This document shows, piece by piece, positions 9,006-41,336 of a stretch of 64,000 nt of DNA. Where the stretch lies: positions 1 through 64,000 of the forward strand of contig QEXW01000075.1 in the NCBI GenBank assembly GCA_003130845.1, read 5' to 3'. The notes under the pieces were generated by a model. The model was not told the DNA's origin. It was given only the letters and a program-made list of their open reading frames with translations, and made no database searches. This DNA comes from Anaerolineae bacterium (GTDB lineage Bacteria; Chloroflexota; Anaerolineae; Anaerolineales; Villigracilaceae). Each line of letters starts with the position of its first letter. Position 1 is the stretch's first letter. The position numbers and the translations under genes are program-made.

Positions 9006-10514
9006 ATGGCAAAAGAAGAATTGCAAATCGGCGTCAGCCGGCCGGCTCTGCCACTGGATGATTTGCCCACCCCTGAAGAAGTCTTCCATGCGCCTGTGCT
9101 AGATTGGAAGAACGTTATCAAGTATGTGCTTGGGCCGAGCATGATTGCCCTGGGCGTTTCCATTGGAAGCGGCGAATGGTTGTTGGGGCCGTTGGCGTTT
9201 GCCAAATACGGCTTTATGGGCATTGGTTGGCTCATTACCATCTCCGCCATCTTGCAAACCATCTACAACATCGAAGTTGCCCGTTTTACAGTCGCCACCG
9301 GTGAAGTTCCCTCGGTGGCGTTTATGCGTCTGCCGCCTGGCAAAGCGCTTTGGGTGCCGCTCACCTTGCTCATCATCTACTTAGGTTGGATTTGGGGCGG
9401 ATGGGCCTCCTCGGCGGGACAGAGCCTGTATGCTCTCTTGGCTGGTCAGCCTGCCAACATGAAAGACCCCACTCAATTGGAGACCGTGCGCATCATCGGC
9501 ATCGGATTGATGATTCTCTCGTTTGTCATGTACATGTTTGGCAAGAAAATTGAACGCACGCTAGAAGTCTTCAATACTTTTGCGGTGTGGTTCGTTCTGG
9601 GTTTTGTTGTTGTCATGGCGATTGCTGTTGTGCCGCTTACCAAGTGGGGAACGGCACTGGCTTCGGCGGTCATTCCGGCGCCAATTCCACAAGGGATGGA
9701 CATTACCTTACTAGGTGCCATCATTGGTTATACCGGTTTTGGTGCGGGCTTCAACTTTATGTTGATTAACTACTACCGTGATAAAGGTTACGGCATGGGG
9801 CATCGCGTCGGCTTCATCAGCGGGCTGATTGGCGGTGAAAAATCCGAAGTGAAGACCTCGGGCGTTACTTTCCGTGAGAATGAAAAGAACGCCCAACTCT
9901 GGAATCGCTGGTGGCGCTTCTTGCAGCTTGACCAATGGGGTGTGTTCTTCATTGGCGCCTTGCTTGGCATGTTCATTCCCAGCTTGCTTGTGGCGCACCT
10001 AGCGACTTCCCCCGGTGCGGCAGAAGCCACAACCGCGAACATGCCGGTGTACGCCGCCACCGAGTTGGGACGCCTGTATGGCTCCTGGCTATTCTACTTG
10101 ACGCTGGCCGTGGGGGCCTTCACCCTTTTCAAGACCCAGGCTACCATTTTGGAAATGCTCATCCGCAACACCGCGGATTCGGCCTATAGCATGTTTCCCC
10201 AGCTGCATGAGTGGACCGGCGGCGATGTGCGTAAATTCTACTATCCGGTAGCGCTGGCCTTCATCATCATCATTGGCATCATCATTCACCTGGCCTTGCC
10301 CACCGAGCTACTCAAAATCTCAGCCAACATGGCGAACTTTGCGGCCATCATCTTCCCGGCAGCCATGATTTACCTGAACTCGAAACTCCCTAAGCCGGCC
10401 AAAGCACCCTGGTGGAGCACCGTGGCGTTGGTGATTAACATCTTGTTCTTTGGGTTTTTCTTCATCAATTTCCTGAGCGTTTTCCTCACCGGCAACCCGC
10501 TGGTCAAATTCTAG
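9006..10514 (+). CDS. Nramp-like transporter (first copy)
   Basis: This 502-residue inner-membrane protein has about eleven hydrophobic segments and the general Nramp (SLC11) layout. In the first helix, where metal-transporting Nramp proteins carry DPGN, it has GVSIGSGEW (GSGEW at 54-58). The MPH motif expected in helix 6 is absent; the region reads GFNFMLINYYRDKGYGMG. It therefore belongs to the divergent Nramp-related group, and manganese or iron transport cannot be assumed. The ATG at 9006 follows a strong GGAGGA site. It is monocistronic, with its own promoter and terminator. Confidence 0.8.
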   Translation: MAKEELQIGVSRPALPLDDLPTPEEVFHAPVLDWKNVIKYVLGPSMIALGVSIGSGEWLLGPLAFAKYGFMGIGWLITISAILQTIYNIEVARFTVATGEVPSVAFMRLPPGKALWVPLTLLIIYLGWIWGGWASSAGQSLYALLAGQPANMKDPTQLETVRIIGIGLMILSFVMYMFGKKIERTLEVFNTFAVWFVLGFVVVMAIAVVPLTKWGTALASAVIPAPIPQGMDITLLGAIIGYTGFGAGFNFMLINYYRDKGYGMGHRVGFISGLIGGEKSEVKTSGVTFRENEKNAQLWNRWWRFLQLDQWGVFFIGALLGMFIPSLLVAHLATSPGAAEATTANMPVYAATELGRLYGSWLFYLTLAVGAFTLFKTQATILEMLIRNTADSAYSMFPQLHEWTGGDVRKFYYPVALAFIIIIGIIIHLALPTELLKISANMANFAAIIFPAAMIYLNSKLPKPAKAPWWSTVALVINILFFGFFFINFLSVFLTGNPLVKF

Positions 10515-29810: not shown

Positions 29811-32066
29811 ATGTCTCATCCTTGGCCCTATCTTGACCCAAATCTACCGGTCGAAGAGCGCATCGCCGATTTGCTGGCGCGCATGACGCTGGCCGAAAAA
29901 TGCGCCCAACTGCATAGCGATTTTGGCTTGGAAATGCCCGGCAATCAACCCTTGCTGAACCGCTTGCGCCAGAATTTTCCGCATGGGGTGGGAATTGTCA
30001 ATTCGTATCATCGCGGGTTGGATACCCGTCAGAGCGTGCGGTTTGTCAATGAAGTGCAGCGTTATTTGCGAGAAGAAACCCGCCTGGGCATTCCGGCCTT
30101 GATGTTTGGCGAAGGGTTGCATGGTTACATGGCAAACGAAGCGACCAGTTTTCCGCAGGCCATTGGGCTGGCTTCGGCTTGGGACCCGGCGTTGCACGAG
30201 CGCATTTTCAGCGCGGTAGCGCGCGAAATGCGGGCGCGCGGGGCGCATTACGTCCTTTCGCCCGTGCTGGATGTGGCCCGCGACCCACGCTGGGGGCGCA
30301 CCGAGGAAACCTACGGCGAAGACCCTTATCTCATCGCGCGGCTGGGCGTGGCGGCGGTGCGCGGCTTTCAGGGGGAACGCTTCAGCGGCGCGCCCGATAA
30401 GGTGCTGGCGACCGCCAAGCACTTCTGCGCACACGGCCAACCCGAAGGCGGCACGAACTGCGCCCCGGCCAATTACGCCGAGCGCACCCTGCGCGAGGAA
30501 CTCTTCGCGCCCTTCGAGGCGGTCGTGCGCCAGGCGAACATCGGGGCGGTGATGGCTTCGTACAACGAAATCAACGGCATCCCCTCGCACGTCAACCACT
30601 GGCTGCTCAAAGACCTGTTGCGCGGCGAATGGGGCTTTGAAGGCTTCGTCATCTCCGATGGCTGGGGCGTGGACGACCTGTACCGCCTGCACTTTGTGGC
30701 CGCCGATGCCGCCGAAGCGGCGCAAAAAGCCATGCTGAGCGGCGTGGATGCCGAACTGGGGCAGTGTTTCCGAACGCTGGAGCAGGCGGTCGAGGCGGGC
30801 AAATTCCCGCTCGAACGGCTAGATGCGGCCGTGGCAAACATCCTGCGCGTCAAGTTCCTGCTGGGGCTGTTCGAGCATCCTTTTGTGGACGAAGAAACCG
30901 CCGTCCGCATCACCAACTGTCCCGAACACCGCGCTCTGGCGCTGGAGGCCGCTCGCAAGTCCATTGTCTTGCTCAAGAACCAGGGCGGCTTGCTTCCCCT
31001 CGATAAGTCGAAACTGCGCTCGCTGGCTGTCATTGGGCCAAATGCCGCGGCGGTGCGGCTGGGCGGCTACAGCGGCAACCCGCTGCAGCCGGTTTCGGTG
31101 CTGGATGGAATCCGCCAAAAAGCAGGCGACAGCCTCGAAATCCTGTACGCCGAAGGCTGCGGCCTGACCCAAGCCGCCGGTACGGCCGCAGAACTGTGGG
31201 TGAAGGATGAAGTCCTGCCCGTCGACCCGGCGCGGGACGCGGAACTGATTGCCTCAGCCGTGCAGACCGCCCAAAAAGCGGATGTCGTCCTGCTCGTGCT
31301 GGGCGACAACGAACAAACCTGCCGCGAGGGCTGGTCAGTCAATCACCTGGGCGACCGTGACAGCCTAGACCTGCCCGGCAGGCAGGAGGAACTGCTGCGG
31401 GCGGTCTATGCCACCGGCAAGCCGGTCATTCTCTTGCTCATCAACGGGCGCCCCGCCAGCATCAACTTTGCCGCCGAACACGTTCCGGCCATTCTCGAAG
31501 GCTGGTATCTTGGGCAGGAGGGCGGTCATGCGGTTGCTGAAGTTTTATTTGGCGAGACCAACCCCGGCGGCAAACTGCCCATCACTTTTCCGCGTTCGGT
31601 GGGGCAAATCCCGGCCTATTACTATCACAAACCCTCGGCGCGGCGCGGCTACCTGTTCAGCGAGATACAACCGCTCTTCCCCTTTGGGCATGGGCTGAGT
31701 TACACCACCTTCGCCTATGGCGAACCGCGCCTGGATAAAGCCACTCTCCGCCCCGGCGAAACCGCCACCCTGACGGTGGAAGTGACCAACACGGGAGAGC
31801 GCGCCGGCGATGAAGTCGTGCAACTCTACATTCGGGATGTCTTAAGCGAGCGCGTCACCCGTCCGGTGAAACTGCTCAAAGGCTTCCAGCGCATCACGCT
31901 CCAGCCAGGCGAGACCCGCGCGGTATCCTTCCCGGTCGGCCCGGAACAGTTGCAATTCCTGGGCGAAGACATGCGCCCGGTGGTCGAACCCGGCGAGTTT
32001 CTCTTGATGGTCGGTGGCAGTTCTGAAACGGTCTGCCAGGTTGCTCTGCATGTGATTGCTGGCTGA
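29811..32066 (+). CDS. glycoside hydrolase family 3 beta-glucosidase/beta-xylosidase
   Basis: This 751-residue enzyme has the full GH3 set: TIM barrel (about 1-340), alpha/beta sandwich (about 370-600) and a C-terminal fibronectin type III-like domain (about 650-740). The nucleophile is D283 in VISDGWGVDDL; KHFCAHG and the catalytic-region stretch LGDNEQTCREGW also fit. There is no signal peptide, so it probably hydrolyses imported beta-linked oligosaccharides. The start follows AGGAG closely. It is divergent from the LacI gene, with operators between. Confidence 0.9.
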   Translation: MSHPWPYLDPNLPVEERIADLLARMTLAEKCAQLHSDFGLEMPGNQPLLNRLRQNFPHGVGIVNSYHRGLDTRQSVRFVNEVQRYLREETRLGIPALMFGEGLHGYMANEATSFPQAIGLASAWDPALHERIFSAVAREMRARGAHYVLSPVLDVARDPRWGRTEETYGEDPYLIARLGVAAVRGFQGERFSGAPDKVLATAKHFCAHGQPEGGTNCAPANYAERTLREELFAPFEAVVRQANIGAVMASYNEINGIPSHVNHWLLKDLLRGEWGFEGFVISDGWGVDDLYRLHFVAADAAEAAQKAMLSGVDAELGQCFRTLEQAVEAGKFPLERLDAAVANILRVKFLLGLFEHPFVDEETAVRITNCPEHRALALEAARKSIVLLKNQGGLLPLDKSKLRSLAVIGPNAAAVRLGGYSGNPLQPVSVLDGIRQKAGDSLEILYAEGCGLTQAAGTAAELWVKDEVLPVDPARDAELIASAVQTAQKADVVLLVLGDNEQTCREGWSVNHLGDRDSLDLPGRQEELLRAVYATGKPVILLLINGRPASINFAAEHVPAILEGWYLGQEGGHAVAEVLFGETNPGGKLPITFPRSVGQIPAYYYHKPSARRGYLFSEIQPLFPFGHGLSYTTFAYGEPRLDKATLRPGETATLTVEVTNTGERAGDEVVQLYIRDVLSERVTRPVKLLKGFQRITLQPGETRAVSFPVGPEQLQFLGEDMRPVVEPGEFLLMVGGSSETVCQVALHVIAG

Positions 32067-32207: not shown

Positions 32208-33212
32208 ATGACCTACTACGGCTTCAACTTCCTATGGATGTTCTCCTCCTGGCGCGGCAGGCCTGCCCAGCCGCCCGATGAGCGCGCCCTCGACTTCCTG
32301 GCTGCCTTTGGATTCAACTTCGTGCGCATTCCCACCGATTACCGCTTCTGGACGCGCGATTTCGACTACTTCCACCCCGACGAATCGGTCTGGGAGAAAA
32401 TCGATTCTTACCTGACCGCCTGCCGTGCGCGCGGCTTGCACATGAGCCTGAACTTTCACCGCGCGCCCGGCTACTGCATTAACGGGAACAACCTTGAAAA
32501 GCACAACCTGTGGACGGATGAACTGGCCCAAGACGCCTTCGTCTTCCTGTGGGAATGCTTTGCCCGCCGCTACCGGGATGTTCCGGCCTCCGATTTGAGT
32601 TTTGACCTGCTCAACGAACCGCCCAACCCCGGTCAATACGGCCTGACGCGCGAAAATCACGCCGCCCTCATGCGCCGCACGGTGGCCGCCATCCGCGCCA
32701 TCAGTCCACACCGCCCGATTCAGATTGACGGCCTGGGCGGCGGTCACCTGGCTATGCCCGAATTGGCCGACCTGGACGTGATTCACAGCGGACGCGGCTA
32801 CCAGCCGATGAACCTGAGCCATTGGGGCGCACGCTGGTGGCGAGGCTGGCAGGTCTGCCCCGCGCCGCCCACCTACCCCGGCGCCGTGTGGGACGGCAAA
32901 ACCTGGAACCGTGACACGCTGCGCGAGTTCTACCAACCCTGGCGCGAAGTGCAAGCCGCCGGGCGCCCGATTCACATCGGCGAGTTCGGCTGCTACAACA
33001 ACATCGAAAACGACATCGCCCTGGCCTGGTTTGCCGATTTGCTCAGCCTATATCGCGAGTTTGGCTGGGGCTACAGTTTGTGGACCTTTGAAGGCGCCTT
33101 TGGCATTGTTCATCACGGACGCCCCGGCACCACCTACGAAAAAGTGGGCGGCTACCGCCACGTGGACCGCCGCCTGCTCGATTTGCTCCTCGAAAACCGT
33201 ATTCAGAACTGA
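32208..33212 (+). CDS. glycoside hydrolase family 5 (cellulase-like) enzyme
   Basis: This 334-residue TIM-barrel enzyme has predicted acid/base E137 (DLLNEPPN) and nucleophile E259 (IGEFGC). The FNFVRIPTDYRFW stretch is typical of GH5. There is no signal peptide. It should cleave beta-1,4-linked glucan or mannan oligosaccharides, but GH5 is broad. It starts 142 bases after the GH3 gene, and the ribosome site is weak, so it may be read from the GH3 transcript. Confidence 0.88.
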   Translation: MTYYGFNFLWMFSSWRGRPAQPPDERALDFLAAFGFNFVRIPTDYRFWTRDFDYFHPDESVWEKIDSYLTACRARGLHMSLNFHRAPGYCINGNNLEKHNLWTDELAQDAFVFLWECFARRYRDVPASDLSFDLLNEPPNPGQYGLTRENHAALMRRTVAAIRAISPHRPIQIDGLGGGHLAMPELADLDVIHSGRGYQPMNLSHWGARWWRGWQVCPAPPTYPGAVWDGKTWNRDTLREFYQPWREVQAAGRPIHIGEFGCYNNIENDIALAWFADLLSLYREFGWGYSLWTFEGAFGIVHHGRPGTTYEKVGGYRHVDRRLLDLLLENRIQN

Positions 33213-33295: not shown

Positions 33296-34492
33296 ATGAA
33301 CTACTTCCATGACCTTTCCCCCCGTCTGCGCGCCGAACTGACCGAGAACATCCTCCCGTTTTGGATGAAACACGCCCCAGACCCTGAACACGGCGGCTTT
33401 CACGGCGCCATCGCCAACGACCTGCGCGTTTTCCCAGAAGCGCCGCGCTCGGCCATCTTGTGCGCCCGCATTCTATGGACTTTTTCCGCCGCCTATCGGC
33501 ATTTTGGCGCGCCGGAATATCGCCAGATGGCCGATTACGCCTACCAAACCCTAACCGGCCCCTTCTGGGACCTGGAATGCGGCGGCGTCTATTGGAGCCT
33601 GAAGCCGGATGGCACGCCGCTCGACCCGCGAAAACACCATTACGCCCAGGCCTTTGCCATTTACGGGTTGAGCGAATACGTCCGCGCTACGCAAAGCGCA
33701 CAGGCCAAAGCGCTGGCTTGCGAACTGTTTGACCTGCTGGAAACTCACGCCTTCGACCCCGTTCACGGCGGCTACACCGAAGGCAGCAGCCGCGAGTGGG
33801 GCGCGCTGGCCGATATGCGCCTGAGCGCCAAAGACCTGAACAGCCGCAAATCCATGAACACCCTCTTGCACATCCTAGAAGCCTACACCAACCTGCTGCG
33901 CATTTGGGATGAGCCGCGCCTGAGACATGCGCACCGCGCCCTGCTCGAAACCTTTGCCGAAAAAGTCTATGACTCCCAAACCGGCCACCTGCGCCTGTTC
34001 TTCGATGACGCCTGGAACTCGCTCCTGCCGCTCGATTCCTATGGCCACGACATCGAGGCTTCCTGGCTGATGTGGGAGGCCGCCACAATGCACCTCGACC
34101 CGGCCCTGCACGAGCGCATTCGCCCTGCAGTGCTGGGCTTGGCCGAAAGCGTGTACCGCGAAGGCCGCGATTCGGATGGCAGCCTGCTCTACGAAGGACT
34201 TCCCGGCAAAATTCACGATGATAGCAAGCAATGGTGGGCGCAAGTCGAAGCGCTGGTCGGGTTCGCCAACGCGTACGAGTTGACCGGTGACTCAAAATTT
34301 GCCGCCGCCGTCGAGCAGGTCTGGCGCTTCATCGAAACCCATCTCATAGACCGCGTTCACGGCGACTGGTTCAAAGAGACCGACCGCGCCGGGCGGGTCA
34401 ACCCCCGTCACATGAAAGCCGGTTTTTGGGATTGCCCCTACCATCACAGCCGCGCCTGTTTCGAGTTAATCGAACGCGGCGCGAATCTCTGA
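33296..34492 (+). CDS. AGE-family epimerase (cellobiose 2-epimerase-like)
   Basis: This 398-residue (alpha/alpha)6-barrel protein belongs to the N-acylglucosamine 2-epimerase superfamily. The opening ([28 protein letters not shown]), [12 protein letters not shown] and the late segment [17 protein letters not shown] are characteristic of cellobiose 2-epimerases, which turn the reducing glucose of beta-1,4 disaccharides into mannose. Neighbouring GH5, GH3 and GH2 genes fit processing of gluco- or mannodisaccharides. Mannose isomerase activity is the alternative. Confidence 0.85.
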
Positions 34493-34523
34493 TTTGTTAC
34501 AGACCCCGAAAGGAACTCATCCC

Positions 34524-35867
34524 ATGTCCTCCCTCCCCCGCATCCGCGTCTCTGAAAACCGCCGTTTCCTCGTCACCGAGACGGGCGAACCCTTCTTCTG
34601 GCTGGGCGATACCGCCTGGGAACTCTTCCACCGCCTGACCATGCCGGAAGCCGAACACTACCTGGAAGTGCGCCGTCAGCAAGGCTTCAACGTCATCCAG
34701 GCCGTCATCCTGGCCGAACATGATGGCCTGCGCACGCCCAACGCCAACGGCCACATCCCTCTGCTGGGCGACGACCCCACCCGCCCCAACGAGTTCTACT
34801 TCCGCCATGTGGACGCGGTCATCCGCCTGGCTGCCCAAAAAGGACTGTACATCGGCCTGCTGCCCACCTGGGGAGATAAAGTCTGCGGCGAATACTGGGG
34901 CACCGGGCCAGCCGTCTTCAACCTTGAGAATGCCCGCATTTATGGCAAATTTCTGGGAGAACGCTATCGGAACGATACCAACATCCTATGGATTTTGGGC
35001 GGCGACCGCCCCGCCGAGGGCTATGAAGACATTTGGGCGGCGATGGCAGAGGGGATTACTGAAGGACTGGGCTTTAAGCCTTTCATGACCTACCACCCGC
35101 GCGGTGGAGCCAGTTCCTCCGCCTGGCTGCACCAGGCCGAATGGCTGGATATGAACATGCTGCAATCCGGCCACTGCCTGGTGGACGCGCCCAACTGGGA
35201 CATGATTCGCGCCGACTACGAGCGCCAACCCGTCAAACCGGTGCTGGACGGCGAACCGAATTATGAACATCACCCGATTGACCCCTACATCCGCCCCTGG
35301 AAGCCCGAATATGGCCGCTACACCGATTACGATGTGCGCAAGCAGGCCTACCGCGCCGTCTTTGCGGGCGCCTGCGGTCACACCTACGGCAGTCACTCCA
35401 TCTGGCAGATGTACGCGCCGCGCTACGCTCCGACTACCTTTGCCTCGCCCTATTGGGATGAAGCCATTTATGGGCCGGGCGCGCGCCAGATGGTTCACCT
35501 GAAGAATCTCATGCTCTCGCGCCCGTATCTCACCCGCATCCCGGCCCCCGACCTGCTGCCAAACGTCACCCCGCCGCCCCCGCCCGCCGACCTGACTCAG
35601 CAAGATGACCGGGTCAACCCCCTGCGGGCCGCTTACCCCGTCGCCACCCGCGATAGCGAAAGCCGCTATGGGCTGGTTTATTTCCCGTTGGCGGGACAAA
35701 GCCTCGAGGTGGATTTACGTCTGCTGGCCGGGCCGGTCAAAGCCCAATGGTTCGACCCGCGCGAGGGCAGGTATCACTTCGCGGGTGAACATCCCCAAGA
35801 AATTGTCACTTTCACCTCCCCGCTCGGCGGCCCCGATTGGGTGCTGGTGTTGGATGTGCAGCCATGA
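34524..35867 (+). CDS. GH140-like (DUF4038) apiosidase-like glycoside hydrolase
   Basis: This 447-residue protein has the DUF4038 barrel (about 15-350), with [26 protein letters not shown] and [14 protein letters not shown] small beta domain at the C-terminus resembles the putative collagen-binding domain that usually follows it (about 355-447). The founding GH140 enzyme cleaves apiose from rhamnogalacturonan II, so a pectin side-chain role is plausible, but many relatives are untested. The ATG at 34524 follows AAAGGAAC. Its stop overlaps the next start (ATGA). Confidence 0.8.
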
Positions 35868-36766
35868 GCAAAATCCCGGTCATCCTCGATACCGACATCG
35901 GCACGGACATTGACGACACCTGGGCGCTGACCATGCTCCTGAACTGCCCGGAGCTTGACCTGCGGTTGATTAACACCGTCAGCGGCGACACAACCTATCG
36001 CGCGCATCTCACCGCCAAATTCCTGCAAGCCGCCGGGCGGACGGAGATTCCCATCGGCATTGGCCTTGGCAGCCCTGAAGGTTCGCTCAACTTCCAACAG
36101 CCCTGGCTGGATGGATTTGACGTTGATTCCTACCCAGGCACGATTTACCCGGATGGGGTGCAGGCCATGCTGGAGGTGATTGCCGCCTCCCCGCAGCCGG
36201 TGACCGTTATCTCGATTGGCGTCGCCACCAACATTGCCCGCGCGCTGGAACGGAATCCTGATATTGCCAGCAAGTGCCGCTTTGTGGGCATGCACGGCAG
36301 CGTTCACCTGGGCTATGGCGGCGCGCCGGGGGCTGTGCCAGAAGCCAACGTGCGCTACGATGTCCAGGCGCTGCGCAATGTGTTCGCCGCGCCCTGGCTG
36401 GAGAAAATCATCACCCCGCTCGATACCTGCGGCCTGGTCGTGCTGGAGGGTGAACGCTACCAGAAGGTGTACCGCTCTCAAAATCCGGCGCTGCGCGCGC
36501 TCATCGAAAACTACGAAATCTGGTCAAAGTTGGTCACGTGGATGACGGTGGATTACACCGACTCGAAATCCTCCACCCTGTTCGACACGGTCGCCATCTA
36601 CCTGGCCTACAGTTTCGACCTGCTCGAAATGGAAAACATCCGCCTGCGCATCACCGATGACGGCCTGACCCTGCCCGACCCCGCCGGTGACGAAGTGCTG
36701 GCCGCCCTGCGTTGGCGCGACCTGGACGCCTTCTACGACCACCTGCTCGAAAGGCTGAAGCCATGA
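35864..36766 (+). CDS. nucleoside hydrolase family protein
   Basis: This 300-residue protein has the calcium-binding family signature [10 protein letters not shown] near the N-terminus (about 8-17) and the usual overall length. Classical members split the N-glycosidic bond of nucleosides. It overlaps both neighbours by four bases (ATGA on each side), sitting between a GH140-like and a GH28 gene. That tight coupling suggests it acts on a polysaccharide-derived glycoside or ribosyl-like sugar rather than in nucleotide salvage; this is inference. Confidence 0.82.
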
Positions 36767-38142
36767 GCCTGCACAACCCTCTTGATTTTGGCGCCGTTGG
36801 CGATGGCAAAACCGACGACACCGCCGCCCTGCAAGCCGCCATAGATACCTGCTCGGCCGGCGGTGGCGGGCGCGTGCTGCTCGCGGCGGGCAAGACCTTC
36901 CGCGCCGGGTCGCTGGTGATGAAATCAAACGTCGAACTGCATCTCGAAGCGGGCGCGGTGTTACAGGCCAGCCCGAACCCGGCCGATTACCCGCGCAAAC
37001 TGTATGCCGGGGCGCTGACCGGCGGCGCGGTGGACGAAACGCACCCCGGCGAAAGCCTCTTCATCACTGCCGAAGGCGCGGAAAACATCGCCTTCACCGG
37101 CCTGGGCGTGATTGATGGCGGCGGGCGTTTCTTCGTGCAGGAAGACCTGGGCTACATCTACAAGATGAAACCGCAGCGGCCTTTCACCTTCTGCCTGTTC
37201 GGCTGCCGCAACGTCACCTTCCGCGACCTGACCATCCGCGACGGCGCGCTGTGGACGGTGCGCCTTTCGGGCTGTGACGACATTCTGATTGACGGAATCC
37301 GCATCCTGAACGACCTGAAACTACCCAACAGTGACGGCATTGACTTGGACCGCTGCCGCAACGCGCGCCTCAGCAACTGCCACATCATCAGCGGCGATGA
37401 CTGCATTGTGCTGAAAACCTGCCAAGAAACGGCGGCTTGGGGTGATACCTGCGAGAACATCGTGGTCAGCAACTGCACCCTCATGTCCACCTCGATTGCC
37501 TTGTGCGTCGGCGTGGAATGCCGCGCCCCCATGCGCGACATTATCTTCGACTCGTGCGTCATCCGGGGCAGTCATCGCGGGGTGGCGGTGCGCCTGGGCG
37601 AAGGAAGTGACGTGGAAAATGTGATTTTCTCGAACATGGTCATCGAAACACGCCGCTTTCACCCGGCCTGGTGGGGCAGCGGCGAACCGATTTGCGTCAG
37701 CGCCGTCCCCTGGGACAGCGAGCGCGGCATCGGGCGGGTACGCAACATCCGCTTCGTCAATCTCCTATGCCGGGGCGAGACCGGAGTCTATCTCGAAGGC
37801 TGGACTCCCGACCGCGTGCAGGACATCTTGTTTGAGAACGTGCAAATCGAACTGGCGCGGCATTCCAAGTGGCCGGGCGCGCGCTACGACCGGCGTCCCT
37901 GCCCGGCGGATTGGGCAAACGACCTCGAAGCGGGCTTCCTGCTCCAACCAACCGATGGTTTCTGCCTACGCAACGCCCAAAACGTCACCCTGCGCAACTG
38001 CGCGGTACGCTGGGGCAAGAACCCTGCCCAAGAATACCGGCACGCTCTCTCCAGCCGGGGCGTGAGCGGCTTGGAACTGGAAAATTTCCGGGGTCAGGCG
38101 GCCTTCCCGGAGCAGTACCAGGCGATATTCACTCAGGACTAG
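36763..38142 (+). CDS. polygalacturonase-like glycoside hydrolase family 28
   Basis: This 459-residue right-handed beta-helix enzyme begins with the pectinase opening FGAVGDGKTDDTAALQAAID. Catalytic features are NSDGID (189-194), GDDC (211-214) with the paired aspartates, and H271 in GSHRGVAVR. It should hydrolyse alpha-1,4-galacturonan or rhamnogalacturonan. There is no signal peptide, so an exo-acting cytoplasmic enzyme on imported oligomers is likely. Its ATG overlaps the nucleoside hydrolase stop. Confidence 0.88.
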   Translation: MSLHNPLDFGAVGDGKTDDTAALQAAIDTCSAGGGGRVLLAAGKTFRAGSLVMKSNVELHLEAGAVLQASPNPADYPRKLYAGALTGGAVDETHPGESLFITAEGAENIAFTGLGVIDGGGRFFVQEDLGYIYKMKPQRPFTFCLFGCRNVTFRDLTIRDGALWTVRLSGCDDILIDGIRILNDLKLPNSDGIDLDRCRNARLSNCHIISGDDCIVLKTCQETAAWGDTCENIVVSNCTLMSTSIALCVGVECRAPMRDIIFDSCVIRGSHRGVAVRLGEGSDVENVIFSNMVIETRRFHPAWWGSGEPICVSAVPWDSERGIGRVRNIRFVNLLCRGETGVYLEGWTPDRVQDILFENVQIELARHSKWPGARYDRRPCPADWANDLEAGFLLQPTDGFCLRNAQNVTLRNCAVRWGKNPAQEYRHALSSRGVSGLELENFRGQAAFPEQYQAIFTQD

Positions 38143-38210: not shown

Positions 38211-40412
38211 ATGAAAACCCCCTTTGACCTTGAACTGGCTTTTACCGAAACCTACCAGCGTTATCTGCGCGATGACCCTGCCCTGCGCGAAGCGCACTGC
38301 CTGTGGGTGCTTCTGCCACCGCTCTTTGACCCGCCCCAGCCCGGTGACCTGTTCGCGGGGCGAATGCATTACCCAGCGGTCGGATTCAGCCTGGAACTGG
38401 CCTCCGGCGGGCCGCTGTATTACTGCCACGCCGAGCGGATTCTCCCCCATCTCGATGCACTCCACCCCGAAGAACGCGCCCGCGTCCAGGCCATGCTCGA
38501 CTTTTGGAAACGAGAAGCCACCATCGAAGGCCACCTGCTCAGCCGCCTGCCGGAAGAAACCCGCCGCGCCACCTCCAATCACGTGGCCGAAATGGGCGGA
38601 CGCCTGGCCGGTACGCTGCTGGATTTTGAAAAACTCGTCCGCTTGGGCATTCCGGGCCTGCGCGCCGAACTCGCCAAAGCCCGCCGCGCCAACGGCGACT
38701 TGCCGCTCTACCGGGGCATGGACCTGGCGCTCGACCTGTTCGTGGAGATTATCCGCATGTACGCTGTGCAGACGGGCGGCGAAATGCGCCAGGTGCTGGA
38801 AAATATCGCCGTTCGCGCGCCGGAGACCTTCCGCGAGGCCGCGCAACTGGCCTGGCTGTACGCCCTCGTCTCCGGCACGGTCAACTACGGGCGCATGGAC
38901 GTGTACCTGGGCGATTTCTATGCCGCCGACCTCGACTCGGGGCGCCTCAGCGAAGCCGAAGCCCTGGCGCTCACCCAATCGCTCTGGCGGCTGATTGCCG
39001 CCCGCCAAACAGTCTTCAACGGGCGAGTTTACCTGGGTGGGCGCGAACGCCCCAACGAAGCCAACGCCGACCGTTTCGCGCTGGTCGCCATGGAAGCCAC
39101 GCGCACCGTCATCGAGGTCGAGCCGCAACTGACCCTGCGCTTTTACGAAGGCCAAAACCCGGCCCTGATGGAAAAAGCGCTGCAAGTCATCGGCGAGGGG
39201 CGCACCTTCCCCATGCTTTACAACGATGATGTGAACATCCCGGCGGTAGCAAATGCCTTTCGCGTGCCAACCGTAGAAGCCGAACACTACCTGCCCTACG
39301 GCTGCGGCGAATACGCCCTCGACCATCGCAGCGTCGGCTCACCCAACTGCTCGCTCAACCTGCTCAAAAATCTGGAAGTTGTGCTGCACAATGGGCGCGA
39401 TATGCAGACGGGAGAAGTGATCGGGTTTTCCTTCACCCCCAACCCGTCAAATTCCCCTCTCCCACAGGGGGAGGGGCTAGGGGTGAGGGGCGAAAGCGCG
39501 TTCCCCACGTTCGACTCCCTCTGGTCTGCCTACGCTCGTCAACTGGAATATTACATCGAAAAACTGGCCGAGCGTCACCGCCTGGAAGTGGACACCGAAG
39601 CCGAACAGGCCGCCTTCCTCTTTTGTTCCATGCTCTACGATGATTGCCTTGCGCGCGGCAAATCCCTGCTGGGCGGGGGCGCGCGTTACCGGGGCGGACT
39701 GATCGAAACCTATGGCATGGTCAACGCCGCTGACAGCCTGACCGCCATCAAACGCCTGGTCTATGACCGTAAACTGCTCTCCCTGGAAGAGTTGGTCGCC
39801 GCGCTGGACGCCGATTTCGAGGGCTATGAGCGTGAACGCCGCCTGATGTTGGCTTGCCCCAAATTCGGCAACGATGACCCCGAAGCCGATGAGATGCTCT
39901 GCCGCGTCTCTGACCATGTTGCGCTTGCTACCCTGCGCCAGGCGGAGCGCGTTGGGCTGGATTATTTCCTGATTGTCAACATCAACAACTACATGAACGT
40001 CACCCTGGGCGGGCAAACCATCGCCTCGGCGGAGGGGCGCCGGGCGGGCAAGCCGCTTGCCAACGGTAACACCCCCACCGCCGGCAATGACACCCAAGGC
40101 GTGACCGCCATGCTCAACTCGCTGGTAAAGGCCGACCCGTCCGTCCACGCCGGATACACCCAGAACATGAAATTCAGCAAATCCTTGTTCCGCGAGCAGT
40201 TACACAAAGTGCAGGCCCTGCTTCAAACCTACTTCCAGAACGGCGGCGCGCAGGCTATGATTACCGTCGTCGGGCGCGGCGACCTGGAAAACGCGCTCCG
40301 AGACCCCGCTTCGCATCGCAATCTCATCGTCCGGGTGGGCGGCTTCAGCGCGCGCTTTGTGGAACTGGCCCCGGAAATTCAGCAGGATTTGTTGATGCGG
40401 ACGCTGTATTAG
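38211..40412 (+). CDS. glycyl radical enzyme of the pyruvate formate-lyase superfamily, unassigned
   Basis: This 733-residue enzyme has the glycyl radical loop RVGGFSARF near the C-terminus (radical on G711) and the thiyl cysteine C365 in YGCGEYALDH, with E367 two residues later. The Cys-x-Glu spacing matches diol dehydratases and related eliminases, not pyruvate formate-lyase, which has Cys-Cys; but the usual GCVE is GCGE here. The substrate is unknown. Residues about 407-428 (SPLPQGEGLGVRGES) are encoded by a repeat element and look inserted. The activase gene starts directly after the stop. It is oxygen-sensitive by family, pointing to anaerobic fermentation of a sugar product. Confidence 0.85.
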   Translation: MKTPFDLELAFTETYQRYLRDDPALREAHCLWVLLPPLFDPPQPGDLFAGRMHYPAVGFSLELASGGPLYYCHAERILPHLDALHPEERARVQAMLDFWKREATIEGHLLSRLPEETRRATSNHVAEMGGRLAGTLLDFEKLVRLGIPGLRAELAKARRANGDLPLYRGMDLALDLFVEIIRMYAVQTGGEMRQVLENIAVRAPETFREAAQLAWLYALVSGTVNYGRMDVYLGDFYAADLDSGRLSEAEALALTQSLWRLIAARQTVFNGRVYLGGRERPNEANADRFALVAMEATRTVIEVEPQLTLRFYEGQNPALMEKALQVIGEGRTFPMLYNDDVNIPAVANAFRVPTVEAEHYLPYGCGEYALDHRSVGSPNCSLNLLKNLEVVLHNGRDMQTGEVIGFSFTPNPSNSPLPQGEGLGVRGESAFPTFDSLWSAYARQLEYYIEKLAERHRLEVDTEAEQAAFLFCSMLYDDCLARGKSLLGGGARYRGGLIETYGMVNAADSLTAIKRLVYDRKLLSLEELVAALDADFEGYERERRLMLACPKFGNDDPEADEMLCRVSDHVALATLRQAERVGLDYFLIVNINNYMNVTLGGQTIASAEGRRAGKPLANGNTPTAGNDTQGVTAMLNSLVKADPSVHAGYTQNMKFSKSLFREQLHKVQALLQTYFQNGGAQAMITVVGRGDLENALRDPASHRNLIVRVGGFSARFVELAPEIQQDLLMRTLY
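39429..39492. repeat. nested inverted repeat inside the glycyl radical enzyme gene
   Basis: Inner arms CCCCTCTCCC and GGGGGAGGGG (about 39454-39475) lie inside outer arms CTTCACCCCC and GGGGTGAGGGG. The translation reads SPLPQGEGLGVRGES, the familiar peptide of a widespread repeat type. It keeps the reading frame. Confidence 0.75.
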
Positions 40413-41336
40413 ATGATTTTCGACCTCCAGCGCACCTCCCTGCACGATGGCCCTGGCATTCGCACGGCAGTCTTCCTGAAAGGCTGTCCGCTGCGTTGTT
40501 TGTGGTGTCACAACCCCGAATCGCAATCGCGCGAGCGCGAGATTTCCTTCCGCCCCAAACTCTGCGCCTTGTGTGGGGAGTGCGTGCGCGTGTGCGAGCA
40601 GGGAGCGCATGAAATCTTGCCCTCTCCCTGCGCCCTTTCCCTGGGAGAGAGGGAACTTCACCGCTATCACCGCTCGCTCTGCCAGCAATGCGGTCGTTGC
40701 GTGGATGCGTGCCTATTCGACGCGCTCAAAGTGGCCGGGACGGAGATGAGCGCCGAGCAGGTGATGGCCGAAGTGCGCAAAGACCGCCGCTTTTACGAAT
40801 CCTCCGGCGGTGGGCTGACCATCACCGGCGGCGAACCCATGCTTCAGTTGGAATTCACCCTCGAACTGCTCAAAGCCACCCAAGCGGAGGGGATTCACAC
40901 CTGCCTGGAGACTTGCGGCTGGGCTAGCCAACGCGCCTACCAGAGCGTGCTTCCGTTTGTAGACCTGTTCCTGTTCGATTACAAAGCCACCGACCCCGTC
41001 ACGCACCGCCGCCTGACCGGCGTGGATAACGCCCTAATTCTTGCCAACCTGGATTTTCTCTACCAAAACGGCGCGTCCATCCTCTTGCGTTGCCCGCTCA
41101 TCCCCGGCGTCAACGACGACCCCGGCCACCTAGCTGGAATTGCGGCCCTCGCCCAAAAGTATCCCAACCTGGCGGGCATCGAACTTCTGCCCTATCACAA
41201 CATCGGCAATTCCAAATACGAGCGCTATGGCCTGGTCAATCCCCTGCCCGGGCTGGAAACCGCCAGTGAAACGGTCAAACAAGCCTGGCTGAGCGCGCTG
41301 CGCGGCCTGGGCTGCCAAAAAGCGCGCCTCGGATAA
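40413..41336 (+). CDS. glycyl radical enzyme activase (radical SAM)
   Basis: This 307-residue activase makes the glycyl radical on the enzyme encoded immediately upstream (no bases between). It has the radical SAM motif C25, C29, C32 (GCPLRCLWC) and the SAM-binding TITGGEPM. An inserted pair of ferredoxin clusters (C51, C54, C57, C61 and C90, C93, C96, C100) is usual for activases of dehydratase-type radical enzymes and absent from PflA, which supports a non-PFL reaction. The linker between the clusters (about 69-84, SPCALSLGEREL) is encoded by the same repeat family that sits inside the partner gene. Confidence 0.9.
   Translation: MIFDLQRTSLHDGPGIRTAVFLKGCPLRCLWCHNPESQSREREISFRPKLCALCGECVRVCEQGAHEILPSPCALSLGERELHRYHRSLCQQCGRCVDACLFDALKVAGTEMSAEQVMAEVRKDRRFYESSGGGLTITGGEPMLQLEFTLELLKATQAEGIHTCLETCGWASQRAYQSVLPFVDLFLFDYKATDPVTHRRLTGVDNALILANLDFLYQNGASILLRCPLIPGVNDDPGHLAGIAALAQKYPNLAGIELLPYHNIGNSKYERYGLVNPLPGLETASETVKQAWLSALRGLGCQKARLG
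40612..40662. repeat. nested repeat inside the activase gene
   Basis: CCCTCTCCC (40620-40628) faces GGGAGAGAGGG (about 40643-40653), the pattern of the copies at 10.5, 33.2 and 39.4 kb. It encodes the linker between the two ferredoxin motifs. Confidence 0.65.

Follow-up and report, generated by a model that had tools for sequence, protein, structure and literature searches.

The DNA analyzed here, hereafter the window, is a stretch of 64,000 nucleotides from an Anaerolineae bacterium (Chloroflexota; assembly GCA_003130845.1, contig QEXW01000075.1, positions 1 to 64,000), and it carries a glycyl radical enzyme gene followed on the same strand by the gene for a radical-S-adenosylmethionine (radical-SAM) activase, whose open reading frame (ORF) starts directly after the stop codon of the enzyme (Table 1). 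The enzyme passes the Pfam cut-offs for the PFL-like domain (PF02901, 288.9 bits) and the glycyl radical domain (PF01228, 69.2 bits), and it is the one PF02901 match in the window genome. Its thiyl cysteine, Cys365, lies within a GCGEY motif (residues 364-368) and its radical glycine, Gly711, within RVGGFS (708-713). The activase has a CxxxCxxC motif (Cys25/29/32) and two CxxCxxCxxxC motifs (51/54/57/61 and 90/93/96/100), and scores 337.7 bits against TIGR02494 (cut-off, 174.35). An earlier note on this DNA had described the ORF pair, Gly711, Cys365, the Cys-x-Glu pair, and the GCGEY motif, all of which the ORF list and motif positions bear out; the extra ferredoxin clusters of dehydratase-type activases that it had also proposed are matched by the two four-Cys motifs and the TIGR02494 score, and Pfam agrees with the GH28, nucleoside hydrolase, and GH140-like genes that it had placed upstream. 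Judged by its motifs and domain matches, the enzyme is a member of the glycyl radical enzyme superfamily with an adjacent cognate radical-SAM activase.

It is clear from the curated models that the enzyme falls outside every class tested, in keeping with the earlier note, which had been unable to match it to a characterized class. The full-length NCBIfam equivalog models reported for it were each missed by more than 790 bits. HypD (NF043068) scored best among them, at 212.7 bits against a cut-off of 1100, and was ruled out on this score; the others were HpsG and HpfG (209.8 and 186.9 bits, each against 1000), CutC (187.1 against 1050), PflD (NF007437; 184.5 against 1109), indoleacetate decarboxylase (168.5 against 1100), and HPAD (150.4 against 1150). 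The formate C-acetyltransferase/glycerol dehydratase subfamily model TIGR01774 gave 283.9 bits (cut-off, 678.2), and the short spare-glycyl-domain models were likewise below cut-off. Pyruvate formate-lyase was rejected on the single Cys with Glu at +2, 65.4 bits against TIGR01255 (cut-off, 994.2), and a structural Z-score of about 23. The best match among PDB sequences was 8iof (E 1.2e-59, 205.9 bits), whose entry title points to a hydroxyproline-type dehydratase, with the PDB eliminases at 140-206 bits; for a relative at another locus (L060), glycerol dehydratase ranked first. An AlphaFold2 model of the window enzyme, built from a 21-row alignment (predicted local distance difference test, pLDDT, 81.4; predicted template modelling score, pTM, 0.85), has the radical enzyme fold and is most similar to glycerol dehydratase 1r8w (Z 31.3, root-mean-square deviation 3.1, 682 residues aligned, 25% identity). 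Eliminases gave Z-scores of 27.9-31.3 and decarboxylases and succinate synthases 27.7-29.3, with IslA and the benzylsuccinate-synthase-type enzymes, compared by PDB sequence and structure only, at 27.9-29.3; class III ribonucleotide reductase was more distant (about 19). These ranges overlap for eliminases, decarboxylases, and succinate synthases, and the reaction can therefore not be read from the fold alone. Taken with the residues described next, these scores indicate that the enzyme is a member of a glycyl radical enzyme subfamily, unassigned in NCBIfam, that carries the eliminase Cys-x-Glu pair in a remodelled active site.

Across the 41 family sequences of at least 700 residues, window included, the motif around the thiyl cysteine reads GCGEF in 26, GCGEY in 10, GCTEF in 4, and GCGEM in 1, and Cys365 and Glu367 are invariant (40/40 rows); the family retains the residues for the first half of eliminase chemistry. 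The surroundings differ. Window position 134 is Gly in all 41 rows, as against His in 14 of 17 other radical enzymes, the remaining three being the ACWEF group, and in the PDB alignment it corresponds to the His at chain position 164 of glycerol dehydratase, while the His281 segment of that enzyme aligns to a gap. The glycerol/propanediol dehydratase pair His164 and His281, which we take to be active-site residues, with His164 presumably serving the leaving hydroxyl, is therefore represented in the family by a Gly and a gap. Arg131 is found in 41/41 family rows and 0/17 others. The loop equivalent to the His281 loop has 15 residues in 41/41 rows versus 19-23 in 15/17 others (the two GCSQ enzymes described below also have 15), and the loop after it has 16-17 residues in the family versus 24-30 in 12 and 9-17 in 5 of the 17 others. 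Ten further polar residues (Asn225, Tyr226, Asn270, Arg272, Asp287, Gln306, Thr308, Asn342, Asn379, and Asn593) are each kept in 39-40 of 40 rows and shared by at most 3 of the 17 others. Given the loss of the His, either Arg131 or another family-specific residue would fill its role, or the leaving group would differ. The glycerol dehydratase (1r8w) and 1,2-propanediol dehydratase (5i2g, 9rco) structures are thus alike to the window enzyme in barrel fold, Cys-x-Glu pair, radical Gly, and extra-cluster activase, but the window enzyme has GCGE rather than GCVE, Gly in place of His164, and a gap at His281-Ser282, and is shorter (733 residues versus 786-796 in the solved chains). No microcompartment genes were noticed with the window enzyme, unlike the situation for glycerol and propanediol dehydratases.

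The earlier note had regarded the pair as an orphan, a description that does not survive, as a 41-row clade spanning five phyla was found instead. Among 150 relatives, three genomes carry a copy at 66% identity or more, the window genome included; a class sample of 396 genomes added one copy (G457, 60% identity), and a phylum sample of 400 genomes yielded no further copy at E 1e-70. In a scan of 84,980 species genomes, 22 loci were recovered from Chloroflexota, Geminisphaera, Citrobacter, Pluralibacter, Buttiauxella, Vibrio, Maledivibacter, Erysipelotrichaceae, and unclassified Firmicutes; the scan used short peptide patterns, is not exhaustive, and missed members in Erysipelotrichales that were found separately, the order surrounding one Erysipelotrichaceae genome having a member in 28 of 148 genomes. 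Records from a plasmid collection added Bacteroidota, namely, Parabacteroides distasonis and Persicobacter, whose proteins are 52.8% and 41.8% identical, respectively, to that of Citrobacter, and both annotated plasmid records label the subfamily member as a pyruvate formate lyase family protein. The 44 pattern matches in viral contigs included no relative, and the Citrobacter gene had no DNA match in E. coli genomes. In a 58-row tree, which excludes family sequences shorter than 700 residues (e.g., L053, L066, L071, and L088), all 41 family rows fall into a single clade (support 100/100, branch of 2.24 changes per column), within which the window enzyme groups with Chloroflexota. The deep branching order is not claimed, because the tree has long branches and its named-type enzymes are only E. 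coli YbiW and PflD and one enzyme (L005) over the HypD cut-off. Literature searches, whose coverage left out most subscription papers, returned no paper on the GC[GT]E[FYM] subfamily and none pairing a glycyl radical enzyme with N-acetylmannosamine-6-phosphate; those pairing a glycyl radical enzyme with deoxyribose-phosphate aldolase include one that treats microcompartments. The subfamily is thus widespread but apparently uncharacterized.

Candidate partners come from the genes around the enzyme in 42 of 44 loci, with L053 and L122 omitted because no family gene was called in them and near-identical loci left unmerged. Complete flanks of at least 8 kb on both sides were available in 28 of the 42, and the counts are lower bounds, as gene calling retained the longest ORF and overlooked the L066 ROK kinase. 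The activase lies within 300 bases of the enzyme in 34/42 loci. A NanE-like gene, assigned by family only (NF002231, over cut-off), lies no more than 10 kb from the enzyme in 23 loci, 12 of which have it within 300 bases; DeoC occurs within 10 kb in 11, a fructose-family phosphotransferase system (PTS) in 10 (8 of these within 300 bases), and a ManA-like gene in 8, with GntR and DeoR regulators in 14 and 10 loci, respectively. One pattern recurs across the loci, in which the enzyme is accompanied by a PTS permease or ROK kinase and by a TIM-barrel sugar-phosphate enzyme, either DeoC or NanE-like; taken together, most loci of enteric bacteria, Vibrio, and Bacillota have PTS, NanE-like, and DeoC genes as their repeated partners. 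The seven DeoC genes scanned (L051, L066, L060, L109, L115, L119, and L124) all pass the TIGR00126 cut-off. The clearest arrangement is that of L066, an Anaerolineae contig, where DeoC (407-1102), a ROK kinase (1108-2064), and the enzyme (from 2083) follow one another on the same strand, separated by only 5 and 18 bases, the kinase best matching the ROK glucokinase family (210.3 bits, under the cut-off of 260.35). In L051, another Chloroflexota contig, DeoC (282-1001) precedes the enzyme (from 1015) by 13 bases. The Parabacteroides order is ROK kinase, NanE, enzyme, and activase, and enteric loci have a GntR regulator and PTS EIIABC genes divergent from enzyme and activase. A zinc alcohol dehydrogenase gene stands directly upstream of the enzyme in G088, one of the relatives. 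One Erysipelotrichaceae genome (L105, G864:C11:115000-130318) encodes another DeoC and an additional NanE, of the type linked to the enzyme (64% identical to L113), some 25-30 kb from its cluster. At L119:3728-4920, 3-hexulose-6-phosphate synthase and 6-phospho-3-hexuloisomerase, both over cut-off, are encoded near DeoC and the enzyme.

The window genome itself has two DeoC genes. The divergent one, on a separate contig (G000:C28), is 71% identical to the partner DeoC of L051 and lies near a ribokinase (TIGR02152, 324.4 bits; cut-off, 299.65), a GH5 gene, a CelD_N-containing protein, a zinc alcohol dehydrogenase-type gene, and a Gfo/Idh gene. DeoC of this divergent group (at least 63% identity) is present in 10 of the 150 relatives, including all three with the enzyme (Fisher P 2.2e-4, with genomes that are not independent), and enzyme-bearing genomes outside that set also hold DeoC of the group (G860, 65%; G861, the query itself; G866, 47%). 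A DeoC-ribokinase pair also lies 14.8 kb from the enzyme on the Persicobacter plasmid, the ribokinase passing the TIGR02152 cut-off.

From these partner genes, we infer that the substrate or product would be a sugar phosphate, with a 2-deoxy-aldose phosphate aldolase acting next in part of the family. Eliminases of this kind form an α-hydroxyalkyl radical and then lose the neighbouring group by a spin-centre shift (PMC6386719). In the reading that we put forward tentatively, at rather less than even confidence, the enzyme is an eliminase whose substrate, a polyol or anhydro-alditol, would be phosphorylated either ahead of the step or following it, and the deoxy-sugar product is split by DeoC to give acetaldehyde. 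The activase would generate the Gly711 radical, which would abstract hydrogen from Cys365; the Cys365 thiyl radical would abstract hydrogen from a carbinol C-H of the substrate, with Glu367 accepting the proton of that hydroxyl, the adjacent C-O bond would cleave by a spin-centre shift, and Cys365 would give its hydrogen back to leave a carbonyl beside a deoxygenated carbon. The substrate would be a polyhydroxylated alcohol or anhydro-alditol, phosphorylated by a PTS or ROK kinase beforehand or by a ribokinase-like kinase afterwards, and the product a 2-deoxy-sugar phosphate that DeoC would cleave to acetaldehyde, serving as an electron sink via alcohol dehydrogenase, and an aldose phosphate that would enter glycolysis. 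In the window organism, the aldolase and kinase steps would fall to the divergent second DeoC and the ribokinase on G000:C28. As in the deoxyribose pathway, DeoC and a ribokinase-like kinase are presumed downstream here; that pathway, however, uses a sugar derived from DNA, whereas here the deoxy sugar would come from the radical enzyme.

Several observations weigh against the DeoC scheme. DeoC was not found within 10 kb in 31 of the 42 loci, only 28 of the 42 having flanks of at least 8 kb on both sides, five of the 11 DeoC-positive loci share one Erysipelotrichaceae arrangement, and the DeoC of L109 adjoins a second, different radical enzyme. The NanE-like epimerase, a more frequent partner than DeoC, has no obvious place in the scheme. 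The divergent DeoC is present without the enzyme in 7 of the 10 relatives that carry it and therefore has other uses, and the window operon contains no polyol kinase, polyol transporter, or DeoC. The missing glycerol dehydratase-type His could mean that the leaving group is other than water, the structural model separates eliminases poorly from decarboxylases and succinate synthases (Z 27.7-29.3), and the use of free or phosphorylated substrates may differ among clades. A narrower version, in which a pentitol or pentitol-5-phosphate would be dehydrated without the usual active-site His to 2-deoxyribose or its 5-phosphate and DeoC would then yield acetaldehyde and glyceraldehyde-3-phosphate, is doubtful, but if true it would be an anaerobic polyol path via deoxyribose that needs neither DNA, ribonucleotide reductase, nor B12.

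The main rival to the DeoC scheme is that the enzyme opens the ring of anhydro-sugar (6-)phosphates, and it holds this place because of the precedent of E. coli YbiW and PflD, ring-opening lyases of anhydro-alditol phosphates (PMC12441222). These two enzymes, which act on the 6-phosphates of 1,5-anhydroglucitol and anhydromannitol, share the fold of the window enzyme (8id7 and 8id0, Z about 30), and a similar reaction on another anhydro-alditol is on balance unlikely. The fructose-family PTS genes near the enzyme recall frwBC beside pflD, and in L117 (L123 is alike by eye) the enzyme has a Cof-type HAD phosphatase and a glycerol dehydrogenase in its vicinity, much as the sugar phosphatase YbiV is encoded beside ybiW. 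A PhyH-type oxygenase gene adjoins the enzyme in both Vibrio and Persicobacter (56.7% identical across phyla), which might provide an aerobic alternative by O2-dependent hydroxylation of the ether carbon; E. coli ybiU, presumably also oxygenase-like, lies near ybiW. On the other hand, the family forms a separate clade, with 26% identity to YbiW and 25% to PflD, and lacks the His that both of these keep. Their aldolase partner also differs, being fructose-6-phosphate aldolase (FSA; fsaA lies near ybiW in E. coli) where the subfamily usually has a DeoC or NanE-like gene instead: tblastn with two FSA proteins against the loci stretches and the window found FSA only in L115, beside a PflD-type enzyme. 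That Erysipelotrichales stretch (L115:14080-19474) holds a PflD-type enzyme (NF007437, over cut-off), the FSA-like aldolase, and a second NanE-like gene near the GCGEF copy.

A role in amino-sugar catabolism, with the enzyme acting on an N-acetylhexosamine phosphate or its alditol and NanE supplying the right 2-epimer, would account for the frequency of NanE-like genes, and it fits with a NanE 75.7% identical between Parabacteroides and one Erysipelotrichales genome, as if moved across phyla with the enzyme, with an Erysipelotrichaceae cluster that holds a SIS-domain gene and an amidohydrolase (Amidohydro_1) that is NagA-like by eye, with the AGE-family 2-epimerase in the window operon, and with the GH20 gene near the Persicobacter copy. 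We nevertheless consider it quite unlikely, as NanE, itself known by family only, is absent from the examined stretches of the enteric, Vibrio, Maledivibacter, Geminisphaera, Persicobacter, and Chloroflexota loci, and to our knowledge cleavage of an acetamide C-N bond would be new for a glycyl radical enzyme.

The earlier note had drawn its substrate from the window operon, which combines glycoside hydrolase (GH) genes with an N-acylglucosamine/cellobiose 2-epimerase-type (AGE) gene and is closed by the enzyme and activase (Table 1).

Table 1. Coordinates of the gene pair, its key codons, and the upstream genes in the window
Feature	Position	Strand	Basis or remark
GH3	29811..32066	+	PF00933/PF01915; directly upstream of enzyme in G009
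GH5	32208..33212	+	PF00150; directly downstream of activase in G009
AGE-type (N-acylglucosamine/cellobiose) 2-epimerase	33296..34492	+	PF07221; its start is downstream of the pair in G009
Apiosidase-like (GH140-like)	34494..35867	+	PF13204, 408 bits; not in G009 stretches examined
Nucleoside hydrolase family	35837..36766	+	PF01156; not in G009 stretches examined
GH28 polygalacturonase-like, directly upstream of pair	36712..38142	+	Pfam; not between GH3 and pair in G009
Glycyl radical enzyme, GC[GT]E[FYM] subfamily	38211..40412	+	733 aa; ORF list, Pfam, clade, AlphaFold2 model
Arg131-Gly134 codons	38601..38612	+	Both residues in 41/41 family rows
Cys365-Gly366-Glu367 codons (thiyl Cys, presumed general base)	39303..39311	+	Cys and Glu in 40/40 rows
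In-frame dispersed palindromic repeat copy in variable loop, residues ~415-430	39453..39500	+	Pattern match at 39457-39489
Radical Gly711 codon	40341..40343	+	Gly in 40/41 rows, gap in remaining row
Radical-SAM activase with two extra 4Fe-4S motifs	40413..41336	+	307 aa; TIGR02494; Cys positions

The six upstream genes, from GH3 to GH28, form a same-strand, operon-like run, and the earlier note had suggested as the substrate a sugar-derived diol, polyol, or sugar acid, possibly from galacturonate, apiose, or rhamnose. In the congener G009 (about 86% DNA identity), GH3 is followed by the enzyme, the activase, GH5, and the first part of the AGE-type gene, within which the contig ends; the pair and the GH3, GH5, and AGE-type genes therefore travel together in the genus, although in a changed order. 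Other hydrolases occur farther afield: a GH2-like gene directly downstream of the activase with GH20 and a sulfatase nearby in Persicobacter, a gene for a GH106 rhamnosidase in Geminisphaera, at a distance of about 8.6 kb, a GH1 gene near the L126 copy (Erysipelotrichales), and a 3-keto-disaccharide hydrolase gene within 3 kb of the enzyme in Parabacteroides. A link to carbohydrate hydrolases, whose absence in relatives would have counted against the reading of the earlier note, thus recurs within the window's own branch. However, the hydrolase families vary between loci, none was seen by eye in the enteric, Vibrio, and most Bacillota loci, of which only some neighbours were scanned, and in the stretches of G009 the pair has no GH28, GH140-like, or nucleoside hydrolase gene next to it, for which reason the nucleoside hydrolase was dropped as a clue to ribose. 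A carbohydrate role for the enzyme is likely; the common thread of the loci is carbohydrate use, and neither pectin nor galacturonate, apiose, or rhamnose as the source is supported. The pectin or hemicellulose reading is improbable.

The repeat copy in the window enzyme raises the further question of whether this copy is functional. The pattern at 39457-39489 occurs at seven places in the genome with up to three mismatches, the window copy included, while a reversed control pattern occurs at none, and the loop in which it sits, 12 residues long in 38 of 41 rows and 11 in one, is lengthened to 29 in the window enzyme. That the insertion damaged and inactivated the enzyme would fit with its place in so constant a loop and with the G457 copy, which lacks the glycyl loop, but it is very improbable, as neither the reading frame nor any catalytic or subfamily residue is disrupted, pLDDT falls below 50 at the insert (residues 410-428), as expected of a flexible loop, and an even longer loop (34 residues) occurs in the G088 enzyme, whose frame is also open across two joined contigs. 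Both G088 and G009 have additional sequence at this loop that differs from the window insert, and the G009 gene is cut by a contig end within it. Two other repeat copies lie at G000:C28:9100-9132 and 10045-10077, inside and beside the DeoC-cluster genes of the window genome. The G457 copy (L043:1612-3861 / L052) ends just before the glycyl loop, with a DDE transposase gene directly downstream, as if cut by an insertion.

We would describe the subfamily as a previously unassigned branch of a known enzyme family for which a function is proposed. HypD shares the eliminase fold, and CutC, HpsG/HpfG, and IslA share both the fold and the activase type, but the window enzyme misses the curated models of HypD, CutC, and HpsG/HpfG. 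Parabacteroides distasonis, Citrobacter, and Erysipelotrichaceae are gut-associated, and the subfamily spans these lineages as well as environmental bacteria. According to one study (PMC11574389), numerous glycyl radical enzymes that are abundant in the gut lack an assigned function. The subfamily has a single residue signature and a recurring set of partners, so that the substrate could be sought among a small panel of compounds in an assay coupled to DeoC, and, if the active site truly works without the usual His, the enzyme would test the requirements of radical elimination.

Other radical enzymes were encountered along with the subfamily. Among the relatives, HypD-like enzymes bearing GCVETG or GCVEVG are common. 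Chloroflexota encode another unassigned group, with ACWEF and RVWGWS motifs (L026:3080-5194, L027:105-2219, and L028:9595-11790; L029 is alike, with masked bases), that is likewise without His at the glycerol dehydratase His164 position. In the GCSQ enzymes (L044:9278-11545 and L045:1244-3577), Gln replaces the general-base Glu; these join the window family in the tree, possibly as a long-branch artefact. The GCNW enzymes (L030:9504-11654 and L055:5258-7552) have no Glu at +2, and the one in Geminisphaera is separated by a few genes from the GCGEY copy, in a locus whose activase (L055:12233-12940), as called, has 236 residues and seems to be without the ferredoxin-like insert.

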